IMG/VR virus record: IMGVR_UViG_3300030328_002325
Span: 1-22,695 of that record
Source: a virus
DNA length: 22,695 nt
Strand: one strand, 5' to 3'
Made by a program: the position numbers and the translations under genes. Shown one piece after another: positions 1,157 through 22,695 of this stretch (its first letter is position 1; every line of letters begins with the position of its first letter). The notes under the pieces were generated by a model. The model saw nothing but the letters and a program-made list of their open reading frames with translations, did no database searches and was not told the DNA's origin.

Positions 1157-1177
1157 CCGACAATAACTAACCCTTGA

Positions 1178-1218: not shown

Positions 1219-1221
1219 CTT

Positions 1222-5211: not shown

Positions 5212-5213
5212 CC

Positions 5214-5894: not shown

Positions 5895-5895
5895 C

Positions 5896-8940: not shown

Positions 8941-8958
8941 ACCTAATTTAGCAAAAGA

Positions 8959-11900
8959 ATGAAGAACCCTATTTCTGTAACAGAAGACAACCTGCAACGC
9001 GATTTGGCGTTAAACATAGACGGGTCGAATGTGTCTGGAGCCGTGACTAACGTCACTCCACAGCAAACGACTCCTGAGTCCGCTTTAGATAAACAAATCG
9101 AAGGTAAAACTATTGAAGACGCTAAGCCTCGTTATGAGAACTCTGTTGATTCTACCCCAGAGCCTCCTCAAGAAGAGGGAGCGTCTTTTGGGGATTTTGC
9201 CGCTGATGTAGGTTTGTTTGGTTTAAGAGGAGTAGAAGGTTTTGTTGAAAGTGTAGGGGGGTTGTTTGGCTCTAAGTGGGACCGAGACGAATGGAGCCTG
9301 TTTGGTAAGTCAAAAACTCTTGTAGGCACCTTTGGCGAAAACATTGTGCAGTTTGGTATAGGAATGGTTCCCGGTTTGGGGACTGCGGGGTGGGTGTCTA
9401 AAGCCGCTAAGCTTGGTAAGGCGGCTAAAATGGCAAAGGCCGCCAAAGCCGCTAAAGGGGCTAAGCAAGCGCAGCAACTAGAAGGTGTAGCCTCAGTCGC
9501 TAAGGGCAACAGGACGCTAGGTGCGGCCACTATGCAAAAGCTTGCTAAGATGAAGCCAGCAGCCCGTAAAGCCGTAGTGTTTGGTTACGCAGGGGCTGTG
9601 TCAGACTTCGTAGCCTTTAAAGGACAAGAAGCCCGTCTTTCAAACCTAGTGACAGAATGGGGAGCTGACAACAAGCTTCTGGACTATTTGTCGTATGACC
9701 CTGAGCAAGACAACAACGAATACGAAGAGAGGTTAAAGAACTCTATTGAGGGTTTGTTTGTTGGTGGTGTGGCTGGAGGCGCTATTGGTGTTCTAGGAAA
9801 AGTGTTTAAGAAGTTTAGACGTAAAAACGAACTAGTTGGAAAAGGGGCACCTGAAGAAGAGGCGATTGAAACCGCTGAAAGAGAATTTATAGCGGACGTT
9901 GCAAGCGACAAGGACGCCGTAAAAGACATGACGGACCTCAACGCTACCATAGCGCGAGAGAAGATTATTAGAGATAACGGCTCTCTTCCGGCTCCCTTCA
10001 AAACTGAAGAGTCTCCTTTTAAGACCGATGTTGACGAGCTTCCTTTAGGCGGTGGAGAAATACCGCCAAAGAAAAAGGCAGCACCTATACAAATAAACGG
10101 AAAGGCCGCAAAAGAAAAGGATGTGGACGGAATGACAGAAGCTCAGGTAGATGAGTTTCTAGCTGAATACGGCGACATGGATATTCCAAGCGTCTCTGGG
10201 TCTGTGGCTACCAAAAAGCAAATAGCCAAAGACATTATTAAAGGAGGGGAAGACGCCCTTCAAACCACTCTAGACCTTCAAGGAGTTGTAGACGCGGTTG
10301 TAGAATCTAACGCTGAAACTTTCTTAAAGACTACCGGAGACCAAGCGGCAATGTCTGCTCGTAAATTGTTTGACGGCTTAAGAAGCACTGAGGGTCTTAC
10401 GTCTCTGTTTAGAGCGGTTAGTAAAAAAGCCGTATCTTTACGCACCGAGCTGCACGGGAAACCTAAGAATGCTCAAGAGCTTTACGACAGGAACGAAGGG
10501 TTCTTATTGGAGTTAGACCACACGGATTTATTCGACAGAGACTTAGCGCAGCAACAACTAGAGAACGCTAGAGGTAATGTTGACGACCTAGAAAAAATCT
10601 ACGCCGAACAGAACGCTATCTATAAGCTCTACAATTACCTAGCCGAAGAAGTAGGGCATTCCGTAGACAGGGCTATTAAATCTAAGGCAACAAAAGAGGA
10701 TATTACATACGAAGGGATAAAAAACGGTGAAGTCAGGACTTTTGAAAAAGGCTACAAAAGTTTGCTTACGGATGTTTACCAGAACCTCGACTTTCTAGTC
10801 GCAGCAAAGGAACTCTGGGCTCAATACGGAACTCACCTTTCTATGGGAATGCTTCAACGTAGGTTTATTTACGAAGGGACGGGCACCGGAGGGATGAAAT
10901 ATAAATCCCGTGATTTAGGGTTTTCTCTTAAGAAAGACGCTGACCCAAACGCGAAAAAAAGCACCGTTCAAGAACTAAGAGAATCCCTTTACCGCAAAGG
11001 CATTAGAGGGTCTCGAAGCGAATCAAAGTTTCTTAGAGAACTGGAACAAGCAAAGAACTCAGGAGACATTGGCGCGGCCTTAAGCAAGCTTGGTGCAGAC
11101 TCTCGAAACGGGTTTGCTAGGACAATGGGATACTACCTTAACTCTCTGTTGAGTAGCCCCGTTACTTGGGGTGTTAATATGGTTGGTAGTGCGTTGATGA
11201 AAGCATTCCGAGACTTTGAGATGATGGCAGGAGCTATGGGTCAATACGGCATGACTGGTAACGCAGACCTGCTTAAAGCCCGTGTTAAGGCTACGTTTGA
11301 TATGGAATCCTTCCTAGACGCGTGGAAGTATGCGGCTATTAGCTTAAAAGCTGGAGAGCCAAGAAGCGTAGCTGGGTTTGTTGCTTATTCGGATAACCGA
11401 TTTGAAGACCTTAAAAGTGGGTGGGTTTTTGGAGACGCAGACTCAAAGAACCCTTTAACGACTGCCGGTAACTGGCTGGGTAATCTTGTGTCAGGCCCTT
11501 CAAGGGTATTGATGGCGGGTGATGAGTTGTTTAAGCAGTGGAATTATCGTTCGTATGTTAAGAGCGACCTAGCGATGGAGGCACATCGTAGAGGCATAAA
11601 AAACCCCACAGAAATCGCCTCTTACGTTAGGGATAACTTTGAGAACTATGTGACTAAAGAAGGGCGCTTTATGAATGAGGCGAACGTCTATAAAGAAGCT
11701 TCTGCAAAGGCTGATGATGAAGGACTTAGGTTTGGTAAGAGGACAGCGTTTGTTGACGAATACATGGACGAAAACTTTTACAGTAACAATATGCGTCTTC
11801 AGGACGGCACTATTTACAAGACCACATACCAAAGAGATATGCTGGTTGACCGGGCAACAGACTGGGCTTTGATAAACACTTTTACAAACACACCAGAAAA

Positions 11901-13785
11901 CGCCTTTGCTCGCTGGGTGTCTACTCAGGCAATGGCTTCTCCTTGGTTAGCCTTTGCTATTCCGTTTGTTAGAACTCCCACGAATATTCTTACTTTTGCG
12001 TTGAGCCGTGTTCTTCCTTTGCCGGGATTAGGACGGTTGCACCACAGTAAAGCTAAAGAGTTTAACGAGAGTTTTCATCAGTTCAAAACTGACAAAGGTT
12101 ATCGAAGCTCTTTGAACCCGTTTCTAAGCGGAGAATATTCCGTAGAAACAACTAAGAGATACGCTGCTGTAGCAGAAGGCAAGGCTCCCGGAGTAGGTGC
12201 TCCAAACGAAGCAATAAGTAAGTATAAGAACTCTCCATACAACGAACCAAAAATTCTTGAAGAAGTAATTCCTGAATCAAAAGCAGCGGCATTCTTTAGG
12301 TCTACAGAAGGACCAACAGGAACTATACACATCGACAAAAACAGGGTCCGTGAAATGTATGAAAGAAAAGCTTGGCAAGACCCCAGAGTTGAAGGCGTAA
12401 AGCCCATACCGGACGAGTATATTCAATCATACGATGATTTTGAAGAGTTTGTTATGGAGCACGAGCAAGCTCACCAGTATCTCAAGCAACGCCACAGAAA
12501 AAACGAGTCTAAAGCTGCCTATGAAAATAGAATAAACAAAGAGGCCCTAAAAAGAATGGAGGCCAATAAGGAAGGCGGCAAAGGTTGGCAGAAAGAGCTT
12601 CAGCGCCTTTACGCAGATACTCCATTTACCGAAGCAATGGTAAAAGAGCACCGAGACTTGAAGATTCAAGGAGACGCTGTGAAAACCGCTGAGAACATTG
12701 GGAGACTGACAACTTCCGCTATGATGACTGCTTCGGTTGCTTATACGATGGAGCTTATGCAAGAGAGAGTTACAGGCTCTCCCCCAAAAGGGTTGGCAGC
12801 AAGGCGAGCTTGGGAGGCTGTAGGTAAAAAGCCGTATTCTATTTTAGTTGGCAGCGGAGAAGACGCTAAATGGGTTAGTTATCAAAAGATGGACCCATTT
12901 GCCACCATACTTGGAATATTTGCGGACACAGTGCACATGACAGACGCCGCGTTTAGAAACGAAGGGCAGGAGTTATTCGCTGATACAAACGAGAAGGCGG
13001 CGGCTATGAAAGGGATTCAAAAGGTGTATGCGATACTGTCGCTAACCTTCTACAACAACATTACAAACGGGTCTTATGTTGAAGGTCTTTACAATGTTAT
13101 GGAGCTGTTTAAAGACCCTACCCAAGCCGACAAGATGGCTGGAAGTGTTCTTGGTGGAATGGTCCCCACCGGGCTTACGTGGACAGAAAACCTTGTTGAA
13201 GAAGAACCTCAAATTTACGAAGCAAGGAAGATTCTTGACCACGTAATGAAGAGGATACCGGCTTACATGAGACCGGACGTTCCAGAGACAATCTGGAGTA
13301 GCGCTTCATTGATGCCTAAACGAAACTGGCTTGGAGAAAAAGTGCGCAAGCAAGGCCCATTCCTTCCGTCTTTTGTTGGAGCAGGGCAACAAGTTCCTCA
13401 TTCGTTTGATATTGTTGACCAAGAAATTTTAGCTCTAGGCAAAGGGTTTAACCAGAGAAGCCACACATGGGCTGCGGGGACAATAGACTCGACAATGTAT
13501 CGCAATGAACCCGGAGGGCAGACCGCTTACGACAGGCACCAAGAGTTAATGTCTACACGCGTTCTTGGAGGGCGCACTCTAAGGCAGTCTTTAAGGGCGT
13601 TAATTCAATCTAACGATTACCAGCAGTTACCTCCAGCTACAGACATGACTATGGGTAAGCAACACCCAAGAAGCATGGCTATTGGTAAAATTCTTACGTT
13701 CTATAACGCTGACGCAAAAAACAAGGTTCTTAAGGAGTATCCTGAACTACGCGCTCACTATTACGAAAGTATCAACAGAAAATAA
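8959..13785 (+). CDS. Giant internal virion protein, T7 gp16-like, with HEQAH zincin-like segment
   Basis: At 1608 residues this is the longest gene here and occupies the gp16 position; T7 gp16 is about 1318 aa and is ejected to reach the inner membrane. Visible parts: a polar N-terminus (1-80); a Gly/Phe-rich apolar stretch (about 85-145); KAAK-type repeats at 148-169; a glycine-rich apolar segment ending in FKKFRRK (265-289); an apolar PWLAFAIPFVRTP motif near 995-1007; and HEQAH at 1168-1172 with E1189 or E1195 as possible third ligand. I see no lytic transglycosylase motif at the N-terminus, unlike T7. The segment around 1115-1200 looks like the metallopeptidase-like domain found in some phage polyvalent proteins. 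That is recognition from memory, not a search. Only a weak AAAAGA precedes ATG 8959. Confidence 0.82.
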   Translation: MKNPISVTEDNLQRDLALNIDGSNVSGAVTNVTPQQTTPESALDKQIEGKTIEDAKPRYENSVDSTPEPPQEEGASFGDFAADVGLFGLRGVEGFVESVGGLFGSKWDRDEWSLFGKSKTLVGTFGENIVQFGIGMVPGLGTAGWVSKAAKLGKAAKMAKAAKAAKGAKQAQQLEGVASVAKGNRTLGAATMQKLAKMKPAARKAVVFGYAGAVSDFVAFKGQEARLSNLVTEWGADNKLLDYLSYDPEQDNNEYEERLKNSIEGLFVGGVAGGAIGVLGKVFKKFRRKNELVGKGAPEEEAIETAEREFIADVASDKDAVKDMTDLNATIAREKIIRDNGSLPAPFKTEESPFKTDVDELPLGGGEIPPKKKAAPIQINGKAAKEKDVDGMTEAQVDEFLAEYGDMDIPSVSGSVATKKQIAKDIIKGGEDALQTTLDLQGVVDAVVESNAETFLKTTGDQAAMSARKLFDGLRSTEGLTSLFRAVSKKAVSLRTELHGKPKNAQELYDRNEGFLLELDHTDLFDRDLAQQQLENARGNVDDLEKIYAEQNAIYKLYNYLAEEVGHSVDRAIKSKATKEDITYEGIKNGEVRTFEKGYKSLLTDVYQNLDFLVAAKELWAQYGTHLSMGMLQRRFIYEGTGTGGMKYKSRDLGFSLKKDADPNAKKSTVQELRESLYRKGIRGSRSESKFLRELEQAKNSGDIGAALSKLGADSRNGFARTMGYYLNSLLSSPVTWGVNMVGSALMKAFRDFEMMAGAMGQYGMTGNADLLKARVKATFDMESFLDAWKYAAISLKAGEPRSVAGFVAYSDNRFEDLKSGWVFGDADSKNPLTTAGNWLGNLVSGPSRVLMAGDELFKQWNYRSYVKSDLAMEAHRRGIKNPTEIASYVRDNFENYVTKEGRFMNEANVYKEASAKADDEGLRFGKRTAFVDEYMDENFYSNNMRLQDGTIYKTTYQRDMLVDRATDWALINTFTNTPENAFARWVSTQAMASPWLAFAIPFVRTPTNILTFALSRVLPLPGLGRLHHSKAKEFNESFHQFKTDKGYRSSLNPFLSGEYSVETTKRYAAVAEGKAPGVGAPNEAISKYKNSPYNEPKILEEVIPESKAAAFFRSTEGPTGTIHIDKNRVREMYERKAWQDPRVEGVKPIPDEYIQSYDDFEEFVMEHEQAHQYLKQRHRKNESKAAYENRINKEALKRMEANKEGGKGWQKELQRLYADTPFTEAMVKEHRDLKIQGDAVKTAENIGRLTTSAMMTASVAYTMELMQERVTGSPPKGLAARRAWEAVGKKPYSILVGSGEDAKWVSYQKMDPFATILGIFADTVHMTDAAFRNEGQELFADTNEKAAAMKGIQKVYAILSLTFYNNITNGSYVEGLYNVMELFKDPTQADKMAGSVLGGMVPTGLTWTENLVEEEPQIYEARKILDHVMKRIPAYMRPDVPETIWSSASLMPKRNWLGEKVRKQGPFLPSFVGAGQQVPHSFDIVDQEILALGKGFNQRSHTWAAGTIDSTMYRNEPGGQTAYDRHQELMSTRVLGGRTLRQSLRALIQSNDYQQLPPATDMTMGKQHPRSMAIGKILTFYNADAKNKVLKEYPELRAHYYESINRK

Positions 13786-13797
13786 CCACTCATAGAT

Positions 13798-15381
13798 ATG
13801 GCATTATCCTATACAGAAATAACCCTCGACAATGCAGGAGGGGCGACAGACAAGGACAATACTGAGTTTTCTTTCACGTTCGATTTTATCAACACGGGAG
13901 ACATCAAAGCTATTGTATCAAATAACAGCGGAACGACTTGGACTTCAGTGCTTACCAATAGTGGGGCTACAGGAGACTTTGATTCCAAAGGCATCGACTC
14001 GACTAATAAGAAAATAAAGTTAGCCGCATCTCCGGCATCGAGTTCAAGCGCAGGTGTTGGGTCGTTGTTGCGTGTTTACAGAGCGTCTACGCTTAACCCT
14101 ATTGTAGATTTTCAAGGAGGCTCACGCATTGCGGAAGCAGACCTAGATAACGCTTATAAGCAAGGGCTGTTCTGCGCTCAAGAGGTGTCAGAAAATGCGT
14201 CTACTCTAGGCGGAAGCGGAGCTGCTCTAGGCGACAACAGCGTTGACCATAACCACATTGTTACAGATGCGGTTACGTCCGCCGAAATCGAAGCGAATGC
14301 CGTTGGAACATCAGAGATTGCTAACGACTCCGTAACCACCGCTAAGACGGCAAACACAATGGATTGGAAGACGGAAGGGTCTACCATTATTCTACCGGCT
14401 GCTAATAGAAACCTGTCGGCTACTGATGCAAACCACGGATGGGCAGGAACAGTTCCAGTAATTCGCGGGGGAACTGGTTATTCATCCCTGAAAACGTCAA
14501 ACGTCTTGGAAAAGATAACCGGACCTTGTGACGGAACTACCGTTACTAGAACGCCTGACGCCCCGGTCTCCACATTTGTTATGCCTAACGTATCTGCTGT
14601 GCAGAACGTAAGCACTAGCTGGGCAGATGTAAGCGGCTCATTGGCTACTTTTATTCCCCATGCGGAAGCTACTCGCGTAGAATACGAGTTTAGTTTTACA
14701 GTATCCAAAGATGCGACCGCGCAAAGTTTAACTTATTTCCGTTTAATGGCAGCTGACGAAGGTTCTTCTTCGGCAACGGAAGTAGACCACGCTAGGTTTA
14801 CCATAGGCGGTCCTGAGTTTAACGGAACTCTTATTCACTTTAAGTGGGTATTTGGTAGGTATGACTCCAGTTTAGGGTCTGGAAGTTATGCAGATTTAGG
14901 TATGGGAGTGTTTGGTTCTACAGCCAGTTTAGGGGCAGACCCTTGGAACGGAGAAAGAAAACTTTACTTACAGTGCAAACAAGAAGCTGACGCTTTGCCC
15001 ACGCTGGCTCGAAGAAAAATAGGAGTCACAAGCGCGGTGCTTAGTTCTAATGTGTTGTCTGTTACTTGCGATGGCAACTGGATTGACCTAGACCCCGGAC
15101 GTAAAGAAATAGTTAAGCTCCACGGAACGTGGGCAAACGCTACAACTGACCCTACAGGATACAAACAAGCTACTTTCGTAGGGACTACTGGCTTTCAAGT
15201 AGGTGTGACCGGAGCAAACCAGACAAGCTACAACCCCGGCTCAGACGCTTATGTGTATTCTTGGGTTCCTAGTGACCACCTTTCGGACACTAGGCTCCAC
15301 GCTGTTCCGCACCACACTGACGAAGCCACGTTGGACGCTCAGCTTAGAACTCCTATTTTAACTATTACCTCTGTGAAATAA
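13798..15381 (+). CDS. Tail fibre protein with T7 gp17-like N-terminus
   Basis: The first ~130 residues of this 527-residue protein resemble the tail-attachment domain of T7 gp17; the clearest part is VDFQGGSRIAEADLDNAY (103-120) followed by KQGLFCAQE. Residues about 150-185 hold loose repeats of the DAVTSAEIEANAVGTSEI kind, typical of trimeric fibre shafts. IRGGTGY follows, and then a beta-rich C-terminal receptor-binding part with no family that I recognise. The overall length is near T7 gp17 (553 aa). No Shine-Dalgarno sequence is evident before ATG 13798, although it lies only 12 bases after the gp16-like stop. The stop shares one base with the holin-like start. The C-terminal part should be the most host-specific region of the window. 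Confidence 0.82.
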   Translation: MALSYTEITLDNAGGATDKDNTEFSFTFDFINTGDIKAIVSNNSGTTWTSVLTNSGATGDFDSKGIDSTNKKIKLAASPASSSSAGVGSLLRVYRASTLNPIVDFQGGSRIAEADLDNAYKQGLFCAQEVSENASTLGGSGAALGDNSVDHNHIVTDAVTSAEIEANAVGTSEIANDSVTTAKTANTMDWKTEGSTIILPAANRNLSATDANHGWAGTVPVIRGGTGYSSLKTSNVLEKITGPCDGTTVTRTPDAPVSTFVMPNVSAVQNVSTSWADVSGSLATFIPHAEATRVEYEFSFTVSKDATAQSLTYFRLMAADEGSSSATEVDHARFTIGGPEFNGTLIHFKWVFGRYDSSLGSGSYADLGMGVFGSTASLGADPWNGERKLYLQCKQEADALPTLARRKIGVTSAVLSSNVLSVTCDGNWIDLDPGRKEIVKLHGTWANATTDPTGYKQATFVGTTGFQVGVTGANQTSYNPGSDAYVYSWVPSDHLSDTRLHAVPHHTDEATLDAQLRTPILTITSVK

Positions 15382-15536
15382 TGGACTCTACCCATGTTCC
15401 TGCTGCGGTTGGCATAGTAGGTATGCTAGGCACTTTTACGCTTTCGGATATTAACTCGATGGTAGGTATCGCAGTGGGGGTGACCACGCTGTGCTACTTA
15501 ATATTAAAGACAATCAAGGAATGGAAGGACAAGTAG
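15381..15536 (+). CDS. Small holin-like membrane protein
   Basis: This 51-residue reading frame begins on the last base of the tail fibre stop (TAATG) and runs into the small terminase gene. It encodes an N-terminal apolar stretch (VPAAVGIVGMLGTFTL, residues 6-21), a short polar turn (SDIN), a second apolar stretch (about 27-42), and a basic tail ending KTIKEWKDK. Two short membrane segments with a charged C-terminus and a position between tail fibre and terS match T7 gene 17.5, the class II holin that permeabilises the inner membrane for lysis. T7 gp17.5 is about 67 aa. Function is inferred from position and topology, not from a specific motif. No endolysin or spanin gene is recognisable nearby. 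Confidence 0.75.
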   Translation: MDSTHVPAAVGIVGMLGTFTLSDINSMVGIAVGVTTLCYLILKTIKEWKDK

Positions 15537-15745
15537 ACAACCAAGAAGAACAACTCAAAAGCCTTCAGGCCCTCCTCATTAACGAGTTCATTACTCGTAT
15601 TGAGTCAGGAGAAGCGGCCCCAAGCGACCTCAATGCCGCTAGGCAGCTCTTGAAGGACAATGGCATCCACGCAGGACTAGCTAAGGATAACCCTATGGAA
15701 AGTCTTGTTAAAATCTTACCGTTTGACGAAGCAGCTCATGGCTAG
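15521..15745 (+). CDS. terS: Terminase small subunit (DNA maturase A), T7 gp18-like
   Basis: The 74-residue product has the recognisable helix pair NEFITRIESGEAAPSDLNAA followed by RQLLKDNGI, which I know from small terminase subunits of T7-like phages. These recognise concatemeric DNA and recruit the large subunit. T7 gp18 is about 89 aa. I chose ATG 15521; AAGGA (15516-15520) touches it directly, which is unusual spacing. An in-frame GTG at 15491 with GGGGG upstream would add ten residues, so the start is uncertain. The gene overlaps the holin-like gene by 16 bases and the HNH gene by 8, consistent with coupled translation of the lysis and packaging block. Confidence 0.82.
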   Translation: MEGQVDNQEEQLKSLQALLINEFITRIESGEAAPSDLNAARQLLKDNGIHAGLAKDNPMESLVKILPFDEAAHG

Positions 15746-15962
15746 GAACTACAGAAAAGAATACGACTCATATCACAAGAAGGCGAAGCAGAAGAAACGC
15801 CGAGCGGGACGCAACAAGGCCCGGTCTATGATGATTAAGGCTGGAAGGGCGAAGAAGGGGGACGGCAAAGATGTCCACCATGCTGACCGAAACCCAAAGA
15901 ACAACTCTCGCTCTAACCTAAGAATCCAGAGCAAGAAGAGGAACAGGTCGAACAACAAGTAA
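15738..15962 (+). CDS. Small HNH-type protein between the terminase genes
   Basis: This 74-residue, very basic protein has a Lys/Arg-rich N-terminal two thirds and a C-terminal DVHHADRNPKNNSRSNLR motif (residues 45-62). The paired His47/His48, Asp50 and Asn55/56/60 match the betaBetaAlpha-metal core of HNH nucleases. Similar small proteins are common in phages. In HK97-like phages an HNH protein beside the terminase is needed for efficient cos cleavage and packaging. A comparable aid to TerL, or simple DNA nicking, is plausible here; a homing endonuclease is less likely given the tiny size and tight overlaps. ATG 15738 is used because it overlaps terS by only eight bases. The minimal domain lacks extra DNA-binding modules. 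Confidence 0.75.
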   Translation: MARNYRKEYDSYHKKAKQKKRRAGRNKARSMMIKAGRAKKGDGKDVHHADRNPKNNSRSNLRIQSKKRNRSNNK

Positions 15963-15966
15963 TCTC

Positions 15967-17628
15967 ATGGAGGTTCCTGAAAAGCTTAAAGACTTCCGTA
16001 ACTTCCTCTACATTGTATGGAAGGAGCTGAACCTCCCTGACCCTACCCCTATTCAATATGAAATCGCTGATTATATGCAAAGAGGAGATAGACGAGCTAT
16101 TATCGAAGGCTTTAGGGGAGTCGGTAAAAGTTGGATTTGCTCTGCATTCGTTGTCCACCAGCTCCTCCTCGACCCACGACGAAATATCCTTGTCGTCTCT
16201 GCGTCAAAAACAAGAGCAGACGATTTCAGCACTTTTACACTTAGACTCATCCATGAGTTACCTATTCTCGCTCATCTGCGACCATCTGATAAGCAACGAT
16301 TCTCTAAAATCAGCTTTGATGTCGGACCCGCGCCAGCCTCCCATGCCCCCTCCGTCAAATCCTTGGGGGTCACATCGCAACTGACGGGTTCCCGAGCAGA
16401 CATCATTGTTGCTGATGACATCGAGGTGGTGGGCAATAGCGCCACCCAAGGGATGCGCGATAAGCTTGGCGAGCAGGTCAAGGAGTTCGACGCCATCATC
16501 AAGCCAGACGCTACGTCTAAGATATTGTTCCTTGGAACACCACAGTGCGAGGACACCATCTACAATAAGCTCACCGAGAGGGGATACCGGAAGCGCATCT
16601 GGCCAGCTAAATACGTCACCAATAAGACCAATGACGCTAACTATGACGGCGCTGTGAGCCACATATGCGTCGATGACGAGGCCGAGGGGTCATCTACAGA
16701 GCCTTTGCGGTTCTCTGACATCGACCTAGCGGAACGAGAAGCCTCCTACGGGCGCACCGGGTTCTCCATGCAGTTCATGCTGGATACCCGCCTGAGTGAC
16801 ATCGACAGGTTCCCTCTGAAGACCAGCGACCTCATAGTGATGTCTGTGGACCCCGAGGTGGCCCCGGAGAAGCTTGTGTGGGCCAGAGACCCTAAACTGG
16901 AGTGGGACTCGTCTGTGCCCAATGTGGGGCTATCTGGGGACCGTTTCTATCGCCCCATGGAAACCATAGGGGAATATATCCCGTATACCGGCTGTGTGAT
17001 GTCCATTGACCCCTCTGGGCGCGGTAAGGATGAGACTGGATACGCCATCATCAAGATGCTGAATGGGTATCTGTTTGTTGTTGATGCCGGAGGAATACAA
17101 GGGGGATACAGCGATGAAGTCCTCAAGGCGCTCACCATGAAGGCCAAAAAGAACAAGGTGAATGCCATCGTGGTCGAGAGCAACTTCGGAGACGGTATGT
17201 TTGTCGAGTTGTTCAAGCCAGTTCTCACCAAGGTTCACCCGTGCACCGTCGAGGAAGTCAGACACAACATCCAAAAAGAAAGACGGATAATCGACACCCT
17301 AGAGCCTGTGATGAACCAACACCGGCTGGTAGTTGACCCGAAAGTCATACAACATGACTATGAAAGCGCACAGAAATACCCGCTAGAGTCCCAGCTTAAA
17401 TACCAGTTGGTCTACCAGATGTCCCGGCTAACAAGCCAACGAGGGGCAATAACCCACGATGACCGCCTAGATGCCCTGAGCATGGCCGTGGCCTACTGGA
17501 CCGAACAGATGGCTCAGGACGCCGACAAGCGCATCAAGGAGCGCAAGACAGACAGAACAGACGCTGAGCTACAACGCTTTGCGGAAACCTATATGGGAGC
17601 CAAGGGGGCTAACTCTACTTGGATGTAA
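15967..17628 (+). CDS. terL: Terminase large subunit (DNA maturase B), T7 gp19-like
   Basis: The 553-residue protein is the packaging motor ATPase and nuclease (T7 gp19 is 586 aa). Walker A is GFRGVGKS at residues 48-55 and Walker B is IIVADDIE at 146-153; LFLGTPQ near 187-193 is the coupling motif. The C-terminal RNase H-like nuclease has its acidic residues in MSIDPSGRG (Asp348), VVESNFGDG (Glu404) and HDDRLDAL (Asp498/499 and Asp502). All expected catalytic positions are present. From about 16320 onward the codons become distinctly C/G-rich at third positions compared with 1222-15380. No strong Shine-Dalgarno site precedes ATG 15967, which lies four bases after the HNH stop. It is followed after two bases by a small metallopeptidase-like gene. 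Confidence 0.93.
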   Translation: MEVPEKLKDFRNFLYIVWKELNLPDPTPIQYEIADYMQRGDRRAIIEGFRGVGKSWICSAFVVHQLLLDPRRNILVVSASKTRADDFSTFTLRLIHELPILAHLRPSDKQRFSKISFDVGPAPASHAPSVKSLGVTSQLTGSRADIIVADDIEVVGNSATQGMRDKLGEQVKEFDAIIKPDATSKILFLGTPQCEDTIYNKLTERGYRKRIWPAKYVTNKTNDANYDGAVSHICVDDEAEGSSTEPLRFSDIDLAEREASYGRTGFSMQFMLDTRLSDIDRFPLKTSDLIVMSVDPEVAPEKLVWARDPKLEWDSSVPNVGLSGDRFYRPMETIGEYIPYTGCVMSIDPSGRGKDETGYAIIKMLNGYLFVVDAGGIQGGYSDEVLKALTMKAKKNKVNAIVVESNFGDGMFVELFKPVLTKVHPCTVEEVRHNIQKERRIIDTLEPVMNQHRLVVDPKVIQHDYESAQKYPLESQLKYQLVYQMSRLTSQRGAITHDDRLDALSMAVAYWTEQMAQDADKRIKERKTDRTDAELQRFAETYMGAKGANSTWM

Positions 17629-17630
17629 CA

Positions 17631-17942
17631 ATGAATATCGAACCACCTAAGTTTATCAACGTAGCCGGACAGCGCATACCGGTAAACGTGAAGGATGAGA
17701 TGCCCGGAAGGTTGGCTGAGTATGACCCCGAGATGCGCTGCATAAACCTACACAGAAGCGTTCTAAGGGACCGACAGTTGTTTCGCTCTTGTCTGGTGCA
17801 CGAAGTGATCCACTGTGCCCTTGACCTAGCTGGCATCTCGTTCAACACAAGCAGAGTCCTGTCCGAAAAGATAGAGGAACAGGTCGTAACAGCAGTGGAG
17901 AGCTTAGCTGCACCAGCCATTATAAGGGTCTGGAGGCTGTGA
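17631..17942 (+). CDS. Small zincin (HExxH metallopeptidase-like) protein
   Basis: This 103-residue protein contains SCLVHEVIHCALDLAG (residues 53-68), a clear HExxH zinc-binding motif (His57, Glu58, His61) on a predicted helix. Glu82 or Glu83 in the following helix is a candidate third ligand. This is the minimal zincin core seen in small phage and ImmA-like metallopeptidases; the substrate is unknown. The N-terminal half (FINVAGQRIPVNV, then a short turn) would give the usual beta-strands. I chose ATG 17631; a TTG at 17619 inside terL could extend it by four residues. It is the last gene of the late block, where T7 has gene 19.5, and is followed by a gene-poor region. Confidence 0.72.
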   Translation: MNIEPPKFINVAGQRIPVNVKDEMPGRLAEYDPEMRCINLHRSVLRDRQLFRSCLVHEVIHCALDLAGISFNTSRVLSEKIEEQVVTAVESLAAPAIIRVWRL

Positions 17943-17999
17943 GAGACGGGATATATGGACACCTAGGGTATCTCTAAGATACACTTAGAGCTGTCCTAC

Positions 18000-18026
18000 G
18001 GTTAAGAATAACAATCCATCTATAAT
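18000..18026 (+). promoter_or_regulatory. Possible host sigma70-type promoter
   Basis: A perfect TATAAT (18021-18026) lies downstream of the late genes and upstream of the small-gene cluster, where an early host-polymerase promoter would be useful. The -35 is poor: GGTTAA at 18000-18005 with a 15-base spacer is the best I see. The -10 also lies in the loop and stem of an ATCCAT/ATGGAT hairpin. Weak evidence only. Confidence 0.25.
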
Positions 18027-18126
18027 GGATGTTGAATGTGGGTTCTAAGTGTTTATTTCACTTTTAAAGGCACCTACAGGACACTCATAGTGTAACCCTG
18101 AGTGCCCCTTGTCAATCATAAAAAAT

Positions 18127-18216
18127 ATGAAAAGAAGATTTAGGCGCACCGTTAGGTGCCGCCAAAGGCGTCGAAGAGAGTGCCTAAAAGCTTGCTCTCA
18201 AGGCCAACCTAAATAG
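18127..18216 (+). CDS. Candidate 29-aa arginine-rich peptide
   Basis: ATG 18127 opens a 29-codon frame whose product starts MKRRFRRTVRCRQRRRREC and ends at TAG 18214-18216. Nearly half of the first twenty residues are arginine, and there are three cysteines. Such a peptide would bind nucleic acid or acidic surfaces if made. There is no Shine-Dalgarno sequence; A-rich bases precede the start. The same DNA forms nested inverted repeats (18139-18188), so the reading frame may be a by-product of a structured RNA. I do not recognise a family. Confidence 0.3.
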   Translation: MKRRFRRTVRCRQRRRRECLKACSQGQPK

Positions 18217-18250
18217 TTTCGTTGCGTGTTGTGTGTTGTGTGTAACGCAA

Positions 18251-18286
18251 GCTTCTCGTCCCCCTTAAACGTGGGGGGCGAGGAGT
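18251..18286 (+). promoter_or_regulatory. 14-bp hairpin upstream of the 60-aa membrane-protein gene
   Basis: Bases 18251-18264 pair without interruption with 18273-18286 (three G-U pairs) around an 8-base loop. The 3' arm contains AGGAG (18281-18285), the only Shine-Dalgarno-like sequence for ATG 18305, but 19 bases away. No T-run follows. It may mask a ribosome site, stabilise the message end, or be a processing site. Confidence 0.6.
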
Positions 18287-18304
18287 TACAATATACTTAC
18301 AACT

Positions 18305-18487
18305 ATGAAAGCCATGACATTAACAGAGACTCTAGTAGTCCTGCTAATTTCAATGGTGCTCAGTCTGTGCGTTATCCAAGCCGCCTTCAAGGTATACGAA
18401 GTCATAAACGCTTGGAGAATTGACCAACACTACCAGCAAATAGTCCCACAACAGGGCCTACCAGATAGATATCTCTTAGAACCATGA
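18305..18487 (+). CDS. 60-aa single-span membrane protein with prepilin-like N-terminus
   Basis: The product begins MKAMTLTETLVVLLIS and has one apolar helix at about residues 9-30, followed by a short polar tail rich in Gln and ending in Pro. The N-terminus looks like a class III (type IV prepilin) signal: a basic residue, a small residue (Ala3) where Gly is usual, then hydrophobic-Thr-Leu-x-Glu with Glu at position +5, then the apolar stretch. It could also be an ordinary small inner-membrane anchor, or a truncated spanin-like protein. No Shine-Dalgarno sequence lies at a normal distance. The stop overlaps the next start by ATGA. I do not recognise a family. Confidence 0.6.
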   Translation: MKAMTLTETLVVLLISMVLSLCVIQAAFKVYEVINAWRIDQHYQQIVPQQGLPDRYLLEP

Positions 18488-18657
18488 GCATTAGGGGTCG
18501 TTACAACAAAGAACATAAAGTAAGAGACACTTCAGGTCTCTACATCAACAATCTGTCTTCCTCAGTAAACAAAGCGTGTGACGCTTGGTTAGAGAAAAAG
18601 GGACTCAAGGCCCCTAGCTGGAAAGAACAGATGAAATCTAAGCAGAAACCTAAATGA
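18484..18657 (+). CDS. 57-aa basic hypothetical protein
   Basis: The frame starts on an ATGA overlap with the preceding membrane-protein gene and ends on an ATGA overlap with the next gene, a chain that strongly suggests a real, co-translated unit. The product (MSIRGRYNKEHKVRDTSGLY at the start) is Lys/Arg-rich, with one cysteine and two tryptophans, and ends in a very basic tail. No signal peptide or membrane segment is present, so it should be cytoplasmic. I do not recognise a family and assign no function. Confidence 0.6.
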   Translation: MSIRGRYNKEHKVRDTSGLYINNLSSSVNKACDAWLEKKGLKAPSWKEQMKSKQKPK

Positions 18658-18821
18658 GAATCATTGATGTTTCTAAACACTGGGTGCACATACAGCGCAT
18701 AAGCCGCTTAGCATTGATTAAAAGCCATCTAGAGGAGCTTAGAGCGCACCTTAAGGGCAATGAGACAGCTCTGGGGATACTTGGGGAGCTAAAGGCCCTT
18801 TGTTTTAATAAGAAAATCTGA
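18654..18821 (+). CDS. 55-aa helical hypothetical protein
   Basis: This is the third gene of the ATGA-linked chain. The product (MRIIDVSKHWVHIQRISRLA at the start) is predicted to be nearly all helix, with regularly spaced Leu/Ile residues (LIKSHLEELRAHL, then LGILGELKAL). It could form a coiled coil or a small helical bundle and bind a partner protein. There is no signal peptide and no catalytic motif. No T-run terminator follows directly, but a GC-rich stretch with long C-runs (18846-18867) and a large stem (18896-18961) does. Confidence 0.58.
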   Translation: MRIIDVSKHWVHIQRISRLALIKSHLEELRAHLKGNETALGILGELKALCFNKKI

Positions 18822-18874
18822 GGGGGTAACGCTCTAGCGTGATTGGGGCGGCCCCCCCATACCCCCCTAGCGCA

Positions 18875-18900
18875 CACACCAGCACTAAGGACACTCAATG
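18875..18900 (+). repeat. Imperfect direct repeat, copy 1
   Basis: CACACCAG (18875-18882), eight bases, then ACACTCAATG (18891-18900). The same two words recur at 19006-19013 and 19019-19028 with a five-base gap, 119-131 bases later. Both copies end in an ATG. Confidence 0.6.
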
Positions 18901-18961
18901 CGCCCCGCCGCGCACAAAAAGAAGACCCTTTGCGCGCCTCTGGGTGGGCTGGGCGTGATTG
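18896..18961 (+). other. Large GC-rich stem-loop
   Basis: CAATGCGCCC (18896-18905) pairs with 18951-18961 (one bulged G, one G-U), enclosing CGCGCA/TGCGCG (18909-18914 with 18931-18936). A six-T run occurs at 18974-18979, 13 bases below the stem, which is too far for a standard intrinsic terminator. It may still end transcription, or mark a genome-end or processing structure. Confidence 0.5.
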
Positions 18962-18990
18962 ATTGTGTTGGCGTTTTTTGGTTCCACTAA
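18898..18990 (+). CDS. Candidate 30-aa peptide with a good ribosome binding site
   Basis: ATG 18898 has AAGGA (18887-18891) six bases upstream, one of few proper Shine-Dalgarno sites in this region. The 30-residue product starts MRPAAHKKKTLC, continues with a Gly/Val/Leu-rich part, and ends in FWFH. The coding DNA coincides with the GC-rich stem at 18896-18961, so the reading frame may be incidental. I recognise no family. Confidence 0.28.
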   Translation: MRPAAHKKKTLCAPLGGLGVIDCVGVFWFH

Positions 18991-18997
18991 GAGGACA

Positions 18998-19050
18998 CCT
19001 ACTATCACACCAGTAGCCACACTCAATGTGTGTGTGTGGTGTGTTGTGTT
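18998..19050 (+). promoter_or_regulatory. Shared leader element, copy 1 (CCTACTATCAC box plus GT-rich tract)
   Basis: CCTACTATCAC (18998-19008) is followed about 20 bases later by a GT-rich tract with TGTGTGTGG and TGTTGTGTT that runs directly into ATG 19051. The same arrangement precedes ATG 20891. CCACAC/GTGTGG (19017-19022 with 19034-19039) can form a small hairpin. No Shine-Dalgarno sequence is present. The element may be an early promoter or an untranslated leader controlling initiation. Confidence 0.5.
19006..19028 (+). repeat. Imperfect direct repeat, copy 2
   Basis: CACACCAG and ACACTCAATG separated by five bases; see copy 1 at 18875-18900. This copy lies within the leader of the 66-aa gene and lacks the AAGGA present in copy 1. 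Confidence 0.6.
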
Positions 19051-19251
19051 ATGTCTATAGAAACCACAGACAATACCATAGCTCCTTATGCGCACTACGT
19101 CTCACCATTCGTGCGTATCAAAGGCCCTCTGCCAACCAAGCAACAAGGCTCAGCACACAAGCCACAACAAGCTACACCAATAGCTCCACAAGTAGCTATC
19201 ACAGTAGTAGTCAACGCCAAGCCTGATGAGCACAGTAGCTACTGGCAGTAA
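19051..19251 (+). CDS. 66-aa hypothetical protein
   Basis: ATG 19051 directly follows the GT-rich leader. The product begins MSIETTDNTIAPYAHYVSPF, is rich in Pro, Ala, Thr and Gln in the middle, and ends in SSYWQ; no membrane segment or catalytic motif is visible. Frames starting earlier at 19026 or 19030 would translate the GT-rich tract into Cys/Val repeats and are unlikely. An early phage takeover peptide would fit the position, but this is inference. I recognise no family. Confidence 0.5.
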   Translation: MSIETTDNTIAPYAHYVSPFVRIKGPLPTKQQGSAHKPQQATPIAPQVAITVVVNAKPDEHSSYWQ

Positions 19252-19491
19252 CAGTCCGCTGCTCCTCAGTCACCTGTATGTCCTCGCTCACCGACCTTGC
19301 GCAAGCATTGGTGTAGTGCGGGCTTAGGCGTAAGTTGCTCGTCTTTGCGTATCCCAAATGACTCTAGCTTCTGCGTCATGGCCATACTCAGCACTGTCCA
19401 TTCAAGCTTTCAAAACAAGCCCTCAGAACTGCCATGCCACACATAAACATGAAGTAGTTCGTTTTTAACTATCATCAAAGCAGAACTCACA
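19252..19491. other. Intergenic stretch without supported genes
   Basis: Only very short frames occur here, for example 36 codons at 19358-19468 and 22 codons from 19378, all without ribosome sites or recognisable products. A 10-bp palindrome, CTTGCGCAAG, lies at 19296-19305. I see no tRNA, promoter or terminator. Confidence 0.4.
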
Positions 19492-19626
19492 ATGTCTTTC
19501 AACAGCCTATCCATGCCCCTGCTTTGGGCTTTGTTTGTTGTCAGATATTTTCATGGGTTCTCTTTGGTTCTTTTTTTGCCCTTGGTTGCACTTAGTGCAG
19601 GGCAAAAGAAGAGAACCTGCACATAA
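19492..19626 (+). CDS. Candidate 44-aa hydrophobic protein
   Basis: ATG 19492 opens a 44-codon frame ending two bases before the next gene. The product starts MSFNSLSMPLLWALFVVRYF; apolar residues dominate positions 8-36, enough for one long or two short membrane segments, and it ends in a basic, Cys-containing tail (GQKKRTCT). Close abutment with the following gene and a positive-inside tail are in its favour. Against it, there is no Shine-Dalgarno site, and a T-rich inverted repeat (19556-19617) lies inside the frame and could by itself give a hydrophobic translation. Confidence 0.35.
   Translation: MSFNSLSMPLLWALFVVRYFHGFSLVLFLPLVALSAGQKKRTCT
19556..19617 (+). promoter_or_regulatory. Long inverted repeat just upstream of the 101-aa gene
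   Basis: GGTTCTCTT (19556-19564) pairs with AAGAGAACC (19609-19617), TTTTGCCCT (19574-19582) with AGGGCAAAA (19599-19607), and GCAC with GTGC at the tip (19588-19598). T-runs lie on the 5' side and A-runs on the 3' side, so it is not an intrinsic terminator on this strand. It ends 11 bases before ATG 19629. Confidence 0.65.
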
Positions 19627-19628
19627 CC

Positions 19629-19934
19629 ATGGAAAATACATCCGACACAAAGACAGCCCACACTAGGGGCATCGCTACGCTTGAAAGAATCATTGACAGC
19701 CGCGCCGGCTGCACTGAGTTCCACTTCGACGATGAGAAAAACGAGCACTACTTCAAAGTATCTGAGTGGCCTGACAATCCTGAAGACGTTTTGAAGGGAG
19801 CTAAAATCGGTCAGAGCTTCAAGTATGGCATTAGCCGCAGGGAAGCCAGAGTCACAAGGGACGCAAAAGGACACGAGCAACTCACTCCTGCCCGGACTGA
19901 CACCACTATCATGCGCAAAATCGCCTCCGAGTAA
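19629..19934 (+). CDS. 101-aa hypothetical protein, first gene of the early-type block
   Basis: The product begins MENTSDTKTAHTRGIATLER and is mixed charged and soluble. It carries the segment CTEFHFDDEKNEHYFKVSEW near residues 28-47 and a basic ISRREARVTRDAKGHE stretch near 68-83. I do not recognise a family. No Shine-Dalgarno site precedes ATG 19629; instead a long hairpin ends 11 bases upstream. The stop shares one base with the next start (TAATG), so the two genes are probably translated together. Codons favour C at third positions. Confidence 0.65.
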   Translation: MENTSDTKTAHTRGIATLERIIDSRAGCTEFHFDDEKNEHYFKVSEWPDNPEDVLKGAKIGQSFKYGISRREARVTRDAKGHEQLTPARTDTTIMRKIASE

Positions 19935-20677
19935 TGGAGATACAGATAACAGAGGCACAGCGGAGAGCGTCATTAGCGGCGCTCTCCGCTCCTTCGCGCC
20001 CGGAGATATACGCTGGGGTCAAGAAAGACCCCAACCAATGGATTCCTCCCACAAACCCTTACTACGACGAAAAGGGTAAGCTACGTAAACCTGCAAGAGC
20101 ACTGGTTTACCAGATGGCAGCCGCATACGTTAACTATCATCTCAGACCAGTTTACCGTTATGTGCTTTCTAACCTCTCACCCAAAGAAGCTAAGAAGTTC
20201 CTCAACGAACTTGCAGACACAGTCGTAGAGGACTGGGAATACGCAGTCGGTGACATACGAGGCATCGACTCTCCTAACGTATTCAGCAACGCAGCTATCG
20301 ACGACCTTCAGACAGGCTACAAGCCAGAGCAGCTCCCTCTCACCAAGGTTGACCCTCCAACCATGCGCCCGTGGAACTGGCGTCCACCCGGTGACGAGCC
20401 AGAAGTCTTAAACTATATGCATAATCCTCTATCTCTCGAACAATTCGACGAGTTCGGTGAGGAATATATCGCACTGGAACAAGAGACTTCTGACTACAAC
20501 CGTCTACAGCGACTCCTCGACTGGCGGGATGACCTTCACACTATCACCGATGAGCGCCAAATAGAACCTGACATAGACGAACCAGAGTTCGGTTATCCAG
20601 ATGACGTTGTAACCTATGAGAACAACTACTCAGCGCTCATCAAAGGCGGCAGAACCGAATGGCCTCAACTCGACTAA
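19934..20677 (+). CDS. 247-aa hypothetical acidic protein
   Basis: The product starts MEIQITEAQRRASLAALSAP. It has a central helical region (ALVYQMAAAYVNYHLRPVYR, near residues 56-75, then LSPKEAKKFLNELAD) and a long, Pro/Asp/Glu-rich C-terminal half that is probably extended or disordered. No signal peptide, zinc motif or Walker motif is visible, and I do not recognise a family. Translation is probably coupled to the preceding gene through TAATG. The acidic, proline-rich tail could be a partner-binding or DNA-mimic segment, but that is speculation. A 30-bp direct repeat begins 11 bases after its stop. Confidence 0.68.
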   Translation: MEIQITEAQRRASLAALSAPSRPEIYAGVKKDPNQWIPPTNPYYDEKGKLRKPARALVYQMAAAYVNYHLRPVYRYVLSNLSPKEAKKFLNELADTVVEDWEYAVGDIRGIDSPNVFSNAAIDDLQTGYKPEQLPLTKVDPPTMRPWNWRPPGDEPEVLNYMHNPLSLEQFDEFGEEYIALEQETSDYNRLQRLLDWRDDLHTITDERQIEPDIDEPEFGYPDDVVTYENNYSALIKGGRTEWPQLD

Positions 20678-20687
20678 CCTATCGAGT

Positions 20688-20717
20688 CGCCAAGAAACTA
20701 GGCTCGCTATCGCTCGC
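20688..20717 (+). repeat. Perfect 30-bp direct repeat, copy 1
   Basis: The 30 bases beginning CGCCAAGAAACTAGG and ending GCTATCGCTCGC are identical to 20740-20769. The flanking bases differ on both sides. The period is 52 bp with a 22-bp spacer. A partial copy of the GGCTCGC core recurs at 20779-20785. Confidence 0.95.
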
Positions 20718-20739
20718 GAACACTCATGAACCAACCATC

Positions 20740-20769
20740 CGCCAAGAAACTAGGCTCGCTATCGCTCGC
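20740..20769 (+). repeat. Perfect 30-bp direct repeat, copy 2
   Basis: This is identical to 20688-20717. The following 45 bases continue in C-rich, CGCTC-containing sequence (20779-20803). Together the copies fill most of the gap between the 247-aa gene and the shared leader element at 20834. Confidence 0.95.
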
Positions 20770-20833
20770 CGACATTCCGGCTCGCACTCTCCGCTCCGCT
20801 CCAAGGCTCACCGGACAACCCACCGCGCCGCCC

Positions 20834-20890
20834 CCTACTATCACGATTGCGCCCAGCATATACCTGTGTGTGGTTTGTTTGTTGTGTATT
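20834..20890 (+). promoter_or_regulatory. Shared leader element, copy 2 (CCTACTATCAC box plus GT-rich tract)
   Basis: CCTACTATCAC (20834-20844), 20 bases of unrelated sequence, then TGTGTGTGG and TTTGTTTGTTGT running into ATG 20891. The box-to-start distance is 57 bases, against 53 in the copy at 18998. The gap sequence is not conserved, which points to selection on the box and the GT-rich tract. No Shine-Dalgarno sequence is present. Confidence 0.5.
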
Positions 20891-20980
20891 ATGAAGATAA
20901 CCTTAAATCAGCTCTTAGAGTTCCTTAAGTGTGACTGTAAACCAACAGACACATTCGACGTTTCAAATGGAATGACATGA
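20891..20980 (+). CDS. 29-aa peptide behind the shared leader
   Basis: ATG 20891 directly follows the GT-rich tract. The product begins MKITLNQLLEFLKCDC and continues to a polar C-terminus; it has an amphipathic helix-like start and two cysteines. The same frame is open back to ATG 20726. That extension would translate the direct repeat, a Pro/Thr-rich stretch and the GT tract into Cys/Val/Leu, which looks unnatural. I therefore prefer the short gene, by analogy with the gene at 19051. Function unknown. Confidence 0.42.
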   Translation: MKITLNQLLEFLKCDCKPTDTFDVSNGMT

Positions 20981-20986
20981 CTAGCT

Positions 20987-21030
20987 GCTACATTCGCCAA
21001 CCGTGACGTTGGCAACCATGACAATGTAGC
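20987..21030 (+). promoter_or_regulatory. Nested hairpin four bases before a start codon
   Basis: GCTACATT (20987-20994) and AATGTAGC (21023-21030) form a perfect 8-bp outer stem. GCCAAC (20996-21001) and GTTGGC (21008-21013) form a perfect 6-bp inner stem with a 6-base loop. The structure fills the gap between two genes and would occupy the ribosome-binding position of ATG 21035. Confidence 0.65.
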
Positions 21031-21034
21031 TCAT

Positions 21035-21370
21035 ATGCGTAACTATCAACACTTCTTCTCATGCCCTACACACCCGTATACAAGCGTAGACAAAGCATAC
21101 GCAGATTTTTGCACAGAGTTTGAAGACAAAGTAGAAACCCTGCACGACAAATACATACACAACGACGCAGACACATCAGGATTTCTCCTCGAAGCAGACG
21201 GCGCTCCTAGACGCATCATCTATCATCCACCAGTTCTCAACACAAACCAACTAATAGAATACATCAACATACTAATAAAAGGCCGCAAGCCATCCTACGT
21301 AGCCACCCGTGCTGCGTTTGACTTCGAACAAAAAACATTCATCAACGATGACTACACCACAACCACCTAA
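21035..21370 (+). CDS. 111-aa hypothetical protein
   Basis: The product begins MRNYQHFFSCPTHPYTSVDK and is acidic and aromatic-rich, with a helical central part (VDKAYADFCTEFEDKVETLH, about residues 18-37) and an RRIIYHPPVLNTNQLIEYIN segment near 59-78. It ends in an unusual run of threonines. No signal peptide, membrane segment or known motif is visible. There is no Shine-Dalgarno site; a nested hairpin ends four bases upstream of the ATG. It precedes a small helical gene after seven bases (or overlaps it by 23 if that gene starts at 21348). Confidence 0.62.
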   Translation: MRNYQHFFSCPTHPYTSVDKAYADFCTEFEDKVETLHDKYIHNDADTSGFLLEADGAPRRIIYHPPVLNTNQLIEYINILIKGRKPSYVATRAAFDFEQKTFINDDYTTTT

Positions 21371-21377
21371 AGGTCGT

Positions 21378-21542
21378 ATGACCGCAATAGACCGTATAGA
21401 GCTAGAGAAAAAAGCAACTCAAGTATGCACACTACAGCAAGCAGAACACCTCAGAAAAGAATACCTATCATATAGACAAACAGGTATGAAAGACTGGAAC
21501 AGATTCGTTCAAGAAACTACAATCCGTAACTCTCTCGTATAA
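21378..21542 (+). CDS. 54-aa helical hypothetical protein
   Basis: The product starts MTAIDRIELEKKATQVCTLQ and is strongly helical and charged, with no membrane segment. I chose ATG 21378 because AAAGG (21369-21373) lies four bases upstream and the gene then begins just after the previous stop. ATG 21348 would add ten residues (MTTPQPPKGR) and overlap the previous gene by 23 bases, so the start is not certain. I recognise no family. Confidence 0.52.
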   Translation: MTAIDRIELEKKATQVCTLQQAEHLRKEYLSYRQTGMKDWNRFVQETTIRNSLV

Positions 21543-21608
21543 TTTCTATAACACATAAAACAATGGACACCACCAACACAAGCAATAACGCCTAGCCCTG
21601 TATCAGTC
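21543..21608. other. Short gap before the DUF932 gene
   Basis: An AT-rich stretch (21543-21563) is followed by a 10-codon frame (21564-21596) that could be a leader peptide but has no support. There is no Shine-Dalgarno sequence before ATG 21609. Confidence 0.35.
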
Positions 21609-22595
21609 ATGGGCGCTGGCGAAGAAATCCGCAACATCGAAGACCTCAAGAACTTCCATACTCCTGATGCCTCCGATGGTGACACCAACCGCAACTATCA
21701 TTCACACAACCAGCTTACGCCTCACTACGAGTTCGCCAAAGCAGTTGTCCACGGTTGCGCTGGATTCAACATCGAAATCGACGACATTGCGTTCAAAGTT
21801 GACTCTGTTCAATCAACAGACGTTCCTTTGCGCATTCCCGGCTTCCCTGTGCTGCTCAACAAGCGCAAAGCCAAAGTAGCCAATAGGTTCTTCCTTATTG
21901 CGCGTATCAAGAACAAAGAACTACAGCTTGCAGACGATGTAGAAACTTACATCATCGCTCGCAATAGCCACGACAAGCGTCTTCCTATGGAACTTGCTAT
22001 CGGTAACAAAGTTATTGTTTGTTCTAATCTAATGTTCGGTGGTGACATTCATGTCAAAGCCAAGAACAGCAGGTTCGGCTTCGACAAGTTCAACGAGCGT
22101 ATGTTTGACCTACTATCAGAATACAAAGACAGCGTCAAAGACCTACGCTCAGACATCATCATGTTCAAGAACTGGCACATCGCACCAGAAATTGCTCATG
22201 CGTTCATTGGTCTCAACTCGTCTGACAATAACTTCGTGCAACCCGGTCGCACTCACCGTGTCCACGCTATGTTCAACCAGCCAGAACATCCCGAAGGTTA
22301 CAGAGACGACAAAGGTAACGAACAGTATACGCTCTGGCGGCTGCTCAATGCATACACCTACGTCCACCGTGGTGAGCTTGCCATCGACAAAGAAACCAAA
22401 GAGCCATACGTAGATGGTCATTCCAAGTATGGTGACCGCACCAACGTCTGTCCGCTTCCGCTCAAGCGCGAATACACAGACCACTTGTGGCAAGCACTAA
22501 CGCATGACAATGTGCGTAACGTAGGTCTCAACTGGGACAAGCAACCTAGCGGTTACGCAAACATCGGCTTCACCGCCCCCGTAATTGTGCCGTAA
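21609..22595 (+). CDS. DUF932 family protein
   Basis: This 328-residue protein matches the DUF932 family of phage and plasmid proteins of unknown biochemical role, often found in early or replication regions. The recognisable core is the NSHDKRLPMELAIG segment (residues 119-132) followed by VIVCSNLMFGGD (135-146) and HVKAKNS (148-154); in the family this is the Asn-Ser-His-Asp to Val-Cys-x-Asn pattern. Roughly the first 30 residues, rich in Asp, Asn and His, form a polar leader. There is no membrane segment. The gene lacks a ribosome site, and its stop is one base from the next ATG. Family assignment is from motif memory; function is not inferred. Confidence 0.75.
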   Translation: MGAGEEIRNIEDLKNFHTPDASDGDTNRNYHSHNQLTPHYEFAKAVVHGCAGFNIEIDDIAFKVDSVQSTDVPLRIPGFPVLLNKRKAKVANRFFLIARIKNKELQLADDVETYIIARNSHDKRLPMELAIGNKVIVCSNLMFGGDIHVKAKNSRFGFDKFNERMFDLLSEYKDSVKDLRSDIIMFKNWHIAPEIAHAFIGLNSSDNNFVQPGRTHRVHAMFNQPEHPEGYRDDKGNEQYTLWRLLNAYTYVHRGELAIDKETKEPYVDGHSKYGDRTNVCPLPLKREYTDHLWQALTHDNVRNVGLNWDKQPSGYANIGFTAPVIVP

Positions 22596-22596
22596 C

Positions 22597-22695
22597 ATGG
22601 GATACTACGACAAAGACAGCGTCGAACAATTCTTTGATGAAAACGCAGTGGCGTCCAAAGCTCCAGCATCGTTCTGGAAGAAAGCTATCCCCGCC
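22597..22695 (+). CDS. Partial gene running off the window end
   Basis: ATG 22597 opens a frame still open after 33 codons at the window edge. It begins MGYYDKDSVEQFFDENAVAS, then a Pro/Trp/Lys segment (ASFWKKAIPA). It follows the DUF932 stop after one base and is probably co-translated. The start somewhat recalls small phage proteins of the ssDNA-binding or recombination type, but 33 residues are too few to decide. Confidence 0.55.
   Translation, partial: MGYYDKDSVEQFFDENAVASKAPASFWKKAIPA

Follow-up and report, generated by a model that had tools for sequence, protein, structure and literature searches.

Two small genes in the early region of a marine T7-like phage begin behind the same 11-nucleotide box, and the question raised by this locus is what that box does. 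The window, meaning the whole 22.7-kb virus contig analysed here (positions 1 to 22,695), carries capsid, tail and internal virion genes, the small and large terminase genes and, beyond these, an early region made up of small unknown genes together with a DUF932 gene. Within this early region the identical 11-mer CCTACTATCAC occurs at exactly 18998-19008 and 20834-20844, 53 nt ahead of the ATG of a 66-aa ORF (19051-19251, + strand) and 57 nt ahead of that of a 29-aa ORF (20891-20980, + strand). The first ORF has no family match, and its reading frame start is near-identical in the related contigs L003 and L004; the start of the second is conserved in a relative's contig, G001. The first-pass annotation, which had recorded both boxes and their distances to the ATGs correctly, interpreted the arrangement as a two-part regulatory element, either an early promoter or a leader acting in translation. 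We propose a different function. Very probably, CCTACTATCAC carries the site ACT^ATCA at which a sequence-specific nicking activity recognizes and cuts the DNA, so that packaged molecules have localized interruptions of a single strand, the + (sense) strand. This reading of contig ends draws on their statistics and on close agreement with a published class of nick motifs.

The conserved unit of the box is its inner heptamer, ACTATCA. The full 11-mer is not itself enriched when mismatches are allowed (6 found against 4.8 expected). The heptamer is the most over-represented 7-mer of positions 17629-22695, with nine forward copies against about 0.7 (0.68) expected and none in reverse, and it also ranks first in the relatives' contigs G001 and G007. 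Its nine + strand copies start between 19001 and 22112; that strand has none before 19001, and the one reverse copy in the window lies in the late region (3692-3698). Sites 1 (19001-19007) and 6 (20837-20843) are those inside the two boxes, with predicted cuts at 19003^19004, a position taken from relatives' contig ends, and at 20839^20840, a few nucleotides before which L003 ends. Site 2 (19468-19474) is present as the same copy in L006. Site 3 (19905-19911) falls in a 101-aa ORF, 22 nt ahead of the next ATG, sites 4 (20133-20139) and 5 (20540-20546) in a 247-aa ORF, site 7 (21042-21048, conserved in G001 at 23339) 7 nt into a 111-aa ORF, and sites 8 (21694-21700) and 9 (22112-22118) in the DUF932 gene. 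The first-pass annotation had seen two of the nine, and its view of the box as a conserved functional element, not a recent duplication, holds; there are many further copies in this contig and its relatives.

These copies are strictly oriented and tolerate little variation. In four contigs, all 35 early-region copies are forward, and 90 kb elsewhere contain 7 forward copies and 1 reverse. Across 55 related loci with 103 kb of early region, defined as the interval from terminase to RNA polymerase gene, we counted 180 forward and 0 reverse copies, within and between genes; the commonest one-base variants reach 13-17 copies, and none is comparable. A pyrimidine follows the heptamer in 72 of 81 non-redundant sites, in which we found no flank conservation beyond that pyrimidine and nothing conserved upstream of the heptamer. 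Copies are intergenic as well as intragenic in all three frames, which rules out a codon or amino-acid repeat effect. The top-enriched 7-mer of the whole window is a different word, GTTTGTT, which lies mostly in late genes, looks like codon usage and was set aside.

The phage belongs to a clade of uncultured marine T7-like phages (Autographiviridae) that encode a single-subunit RNA polymerase and are present in many metagenomes. The clade has no cultured member and no close isolate. MedDCM-OCT-S45-C18, the nearest annotated genome, shares 71% identity in the terminase and 52% in the capsid protein; for the RNA polymerase, identity to the nearest annotated genome is only 39.6%. A search for hosts in genome contigs brought up Altibacter, through a metagenome-assembled contig (L174) with a terminase 74% identical, which was too weak a link to accept. 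The absence of Shine-Dalgarno sites from the genes at 19051 and 20891, which the first-pass annotation had singled out, is real and nothing special, since such sites are lacking throughout the phage: 3 of 14 ORFs in the window have one, against 17-20 of about 30 in CRP-171, HTVC134P and LUZ100. Their near-absence from the window, G002 and G007 hints that the hosts belong to a group that does without them. As a separate compositional feature, the early region with the site cluster (18990-22695) has a reversed GC skew, with C exceeding G on the + strand. Skew is -0.1 to -0.26 (C over G, sense strand) across the site-bearing region in the window, G001, G002 and seven further contigs; it is back near 0 by the RNA polymerase gene, and the flip is absent from most T7-like relatives without a site cluster.

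The evidence for cutting comes from the places where contigs end. Contigs retrieved through their RNA polymerase gene often begin a few dozen bases upstream of it, and these starts coincide with the heptamer. Among 34 clade contigs whose left end lies upstream of the RNA polymerase gene (a set that includes L124, whose start is no true contig end), 13 start exactly at ATCA (P ~1e-27 at the observed site density), each from a different metagenome. Sister clades add three ATCA starts, for a total of 16. For 12 of the 16 a homologue covers the junction, and each of these 12 breaks is immediately preceded by ACT in one homologue or more; for L117, one further homologue has GCT there. Right ends behave similarly, in that 12 of the 24 contigs leaving the terminase side past the first site stop 5-31 nt beyond ACT^ATCA (P 3e-10). 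Three controls were applied. Left ends in the late region start at ATCA in 1 of 48 cases, the exception being L021, whose homologues have GAC or GAT and not ACT before ATCA; contig starts of unrelated phages do so in 0 of 47; and right ends of RNA polymerase loci carry the heptamer in 1 of 44. The tf-like contigs in IMG/VR, taken as a positive control, are near-complete 45-46 kb records only and therefore offer no informative contig ends.

Breaks placed exactly at ACT^ATCA, in contigs drawn from many metagenomes, point to a physical strand interruption. A repeat of only 7 bp is too short to interrupt an assembly. Most likely, then, it is the DNA that is discontinuous at these sites, and since every site is on one strand, the evidence points to a single-strand break. 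Many contigs nonetheless read through copies of the heptamer, the window through nine of them and L003 and L004 through site 1. A fixed 5' end would account for the exact ATCA start, and an extendable 3' end for the overshoot of 5-31 nt. On the mechanism we favour, a sequence-specific nickase would cut the + strand of virion DNA between ACT and ATCA; the 5' end at ATCA would stay where the cut put it, and library making would add some 5-31 nt to the 3' end at ACT. Some other discontinuity at ACT^ATCA, such as a covalently bound protein, a blocking base, a gap, or Chi-like or replication intermediates, would likewise halt polymerases on one strand, and contigs would end at the same place. We nevertheless consider anything other than a simple ligatable nick very improbable, because the right-end overshoot is expected of an extended free 3'-OH, and because the nicks of phage tf are ligatable. 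The overshoot itself suggests an extendable 3' end. Chi-like end protection, which the orientation of the sites brought to mind, was rejected because it leaves the contig ends unexplained.

We now turn to the GT-rich leaders that drew attention to the boxes. As the first-pass annotation stated, GT-rich tracts precede both ATGs: G/T-only runs occupy 19027-19050, abutting the ATG at 19051, and 20865-20887, shortly before the ATG at 20891 and conserved in G001 (both + strand). The looser upstream tract that it mentioned also exists, as a G/T-only run at 18226-18243. Two consecutive hairpins occupy 18221-18280 there, one with a GT-rich loop (TTGCGT...ACGCAA) and one rich in C/G (CTCGTCCCCC...GGGGGGCGAG). 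An order of site, GT-rich stretch and ATG, with the site 27-55 nt before the ATG, occurs twice in the window and recurs in several lineages (L025/L023, L028, L037, L053/L060 and L111), as expected if box, tract and start codon formed a single promoter or translation leader. That reading has become very unlikely. Seven of the nine copies in the window lack a GT tract and six are inside genes, in all three frames; the tract is missing at most copies generally, the lack of Shine-Dalgarno sites is genome-wide, and there are no sigma-70-like sites at the boxes. Specifically, a search for -35/-10 hexamers at 16-18 nt spacing found none on the + strand at either box, on which ground a host sigma-70 promoter with terminators was rejected, and Rfam and tRNA scans gave no match. 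Some sites happen to have a GT-rich leader behind them, but site and leader are separate features.

The sites are concentrated between terminase and RNA polymerase gene, an uneven placement towards one genome end, with about 9-14 sites. In the window the cluster starts 1.4 kb downstream of the large terminase gene (15967-17628, + strand). In G001 it starts 1.6 kb past the terminase and stops about 115 bp before the RNA polymerase gene. G002 could be joined with L102, the polymerase being identical, and the two together carry 14 copies in 4.1 kb, the last of them 10 bp before the polymerase gene. Spacing there is 314 nt with a CV of 0.32, more even than chance (P 1e-4), and in the window 389 nt with a CV of 0.35 (P 0.003 for evenness); L111 gave no sign of even spacing (P 0.55). 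In the close clade, contigs that reach far enough have one or two copies in the last 150 bp or so before the RNA polymerase gene. On the basis of synteny with LUZ100 and other T7-like phages, the site-bearing interval is taken as the early region, which would extend from the vicinity of the left genome end up to the polymerase gene.

Comparison of the window with G001 shows how the sites persist while their surroundings change. The first 1.2 kb past the terminase are 97% identical and positions 20868-22695 are 90% identical; the 2 kb between these blocks are almost wholly unrelated, yet both versions bear copies. This 2-kb early gene cassette (window 18842-20867, G001 21293-23164) is replaced from one phage to the other, and its right junction falls just after site 6 and a second element, GATTGCGCCC (20845-20854, + strand), which lies one base after that site. 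In relatives the same element stands, at variable spacing, behind those copies that closely precede the RNA polymerase gene: as GATTGMGNCCG it follows the heptamer by 1-10 nt in eight contigs, often as a tandem pair immediately ahead of the gene. A 52-nt direct tandem repeat (20688-20791, 79% identical) containing CGCCAAGAAACTAGGCTCGCTATCGCTCGC lies within the window's cassette and is present as a single copy in L003. About 1.2 kb past the terminase, where close relatives begin to diverge, there is a small inverted repeat, ACGCTCTAGCGT (18829-18840), kept in seven relatives (L004, L005, L008, L010 and L015-L017), which could mark the genome end. Beyond the early region, L101, L102 and their relatives have single, positionally conserved ACTATCA copies in coding sequence about 4.18 and 8.42 kb after the start of the RNA polymerase gene, and contig L107 ends beside one copy downstream of that gene. 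Some of these downstream copies may be nicked too.

The position of the last copies just ahead of the RNA polymerase gene recalls a phage promoter. ACTATCA might form the core of promoters used by the single-subunit RNA polymerase that the phage encodes (cf. T7 CACTATAG), the letters ACTAT being common to T7-type promoters; in the close clade one or two copies lie within about 150 bp of the polymerase gene, and LUZ100 also has a phage promoter upstream of its polymerase gene. We regard this as highly improbable. There are no + strand copies in 17.6 kb of late genes (window 1-19000 has none), and the early promoter proposed in the first-pass annotation fails on the same point, no copy standing ahead of the middle or late operons and no promoter-like flank being conserved. 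Positions -7 to -12, which set T7 promoter specificity, are not conserved, nor is there a conserved -17 to +6 sequence; the mapped LUZ100 phage promoters have an unrelated core, and contig ends would be left unexplained. In short, the sites resemble T7 and LUZ100 promoters in lying just upstream of the RNA polymerase gene and, for T7, in the letters ACTAT, and differ from them in the lack of sites before late genes and of an extended promoter consensus. A search for another promoter motif within the G002 genome gave nothing useful. Finally, stoperator-like binding sites of a repressor or other protein along the early operon, or RNA elements in early mRNA, would suit a polar, fairly evenly spaced set of sites within and between genes of the early region, and they are scarcely to be credited given the exact ATCA contig starts, which they do not explain.

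Nicking at ACT^ATCA thus remains our preferred reading, and it invites the question of when and by what the cuts would be made. Their position in the early region would fit a function in packaging or at the initial stage of DNA entry. In phage phikF77, nicks are reportedly made late, around packaging, and phikF77 is said to be the only case where repair after entry has been shown; by analogy, nicking in the present phages would take place at that late stage, and resealing soon after the next infection begins. As nickase, the strongest local candidate is a 74-aa HNH protein (Pfam HNH_3) encoded between the small and large terminase genes (15738-15962, + strand). This gene is shared by the motif-bearing contigs in which the locus is covered and by relatives that lack the motif; no analogous motif was found in the latter (enriched words there are mostly A-rich). 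A search of phages tf and phiKMV gave no homologue, and for these reasons the protein is a lead only. More speculatively, and in our estimate rather unlikely as a whole, nicks between the left end and the RNA polymerase gene could serve genome entry or the hand-over of transcription, marking the part that enters first and is read by host polymerase, and be made by this miniature HNH protein.

The implications of such nicking would extend beyond this locus. In T5, site-specific nicks in virion DNA have been on record since the 1960s; they are a long-standing puzzle of a few laboratory phages and, as of 2012, their spread was unsurveyed (PMC3517423). The present analysis would extend nicked phages to an uncultured marine T7-like clade, add a new cut motif and tie nicks to one functional segment of the genome. 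Because contig ends map nicks, public assemblies could be screened for nicked phages, and metagenome contig ends used as a nick map may become a general method. The same effect would explain why the early regions of this clade assemble piecewise. There is a parallel in Klebsiella phage fHe-Kpn01, where a read-start peak was traced to a nick and attributed to shearing there (PMC7291057).

How do these sites compare with those of phages in which nicks have been mapped? A short strict consensus, sites on one strand (180:0) and uneven placement towards one end are traits that they share with nicked phages of the T5, phiKMV and tf type. Coliphages T5 and BF23 likewise have localized nicks in one strand of virion DNA, but these comprise a few major and many minor nicks at an R^GCGCRGG motif in an unrelated phage. 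T5 has a dedicated nicking function, sciA/sciB. The phiKMV-like phages phikF77 and LUZ19 are also Autographiviridae with localized one-strand nicks; their motif, CGACxxxxxCCTA^CTCCGG, is longer and different, and is reported on the non-coding strand whereas ours is on the coding strand. Phage tf offers a close match: its 14 mapped nicks, at TACT^RTGMC, are confined to the top strand, have ligatable ends and include 11 in the left half (PMC3517423), and we re-found the listed sites. Rembedalsseter has 13 nicks at WACTRTGAC, a motif enriched in 60 related phages (PMC11780129). Unlike tf and its relatives, whose motif is ACT^RTGAC and in which (for tf) nicking was measured, the phages described here are of a T7-like family with a single-subunit RNA polymerase, and their sites are concentrated before the RNA polymerase gene, with nicking read from contig ends. 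As in tf, LUZ24, PaP3 and Rembedalsseter, a short strict motif with ACT right before the cut occurs on one strand about 9-14 times per genome, inside and outside genes and, as in tf and its relatives, crowded towards one end. ACT^ATCAY thus appears to be a new nick motif, present in an uncultured marine clade of Autographiviridae at about 9-14 sites before the RNA polymerase gene.
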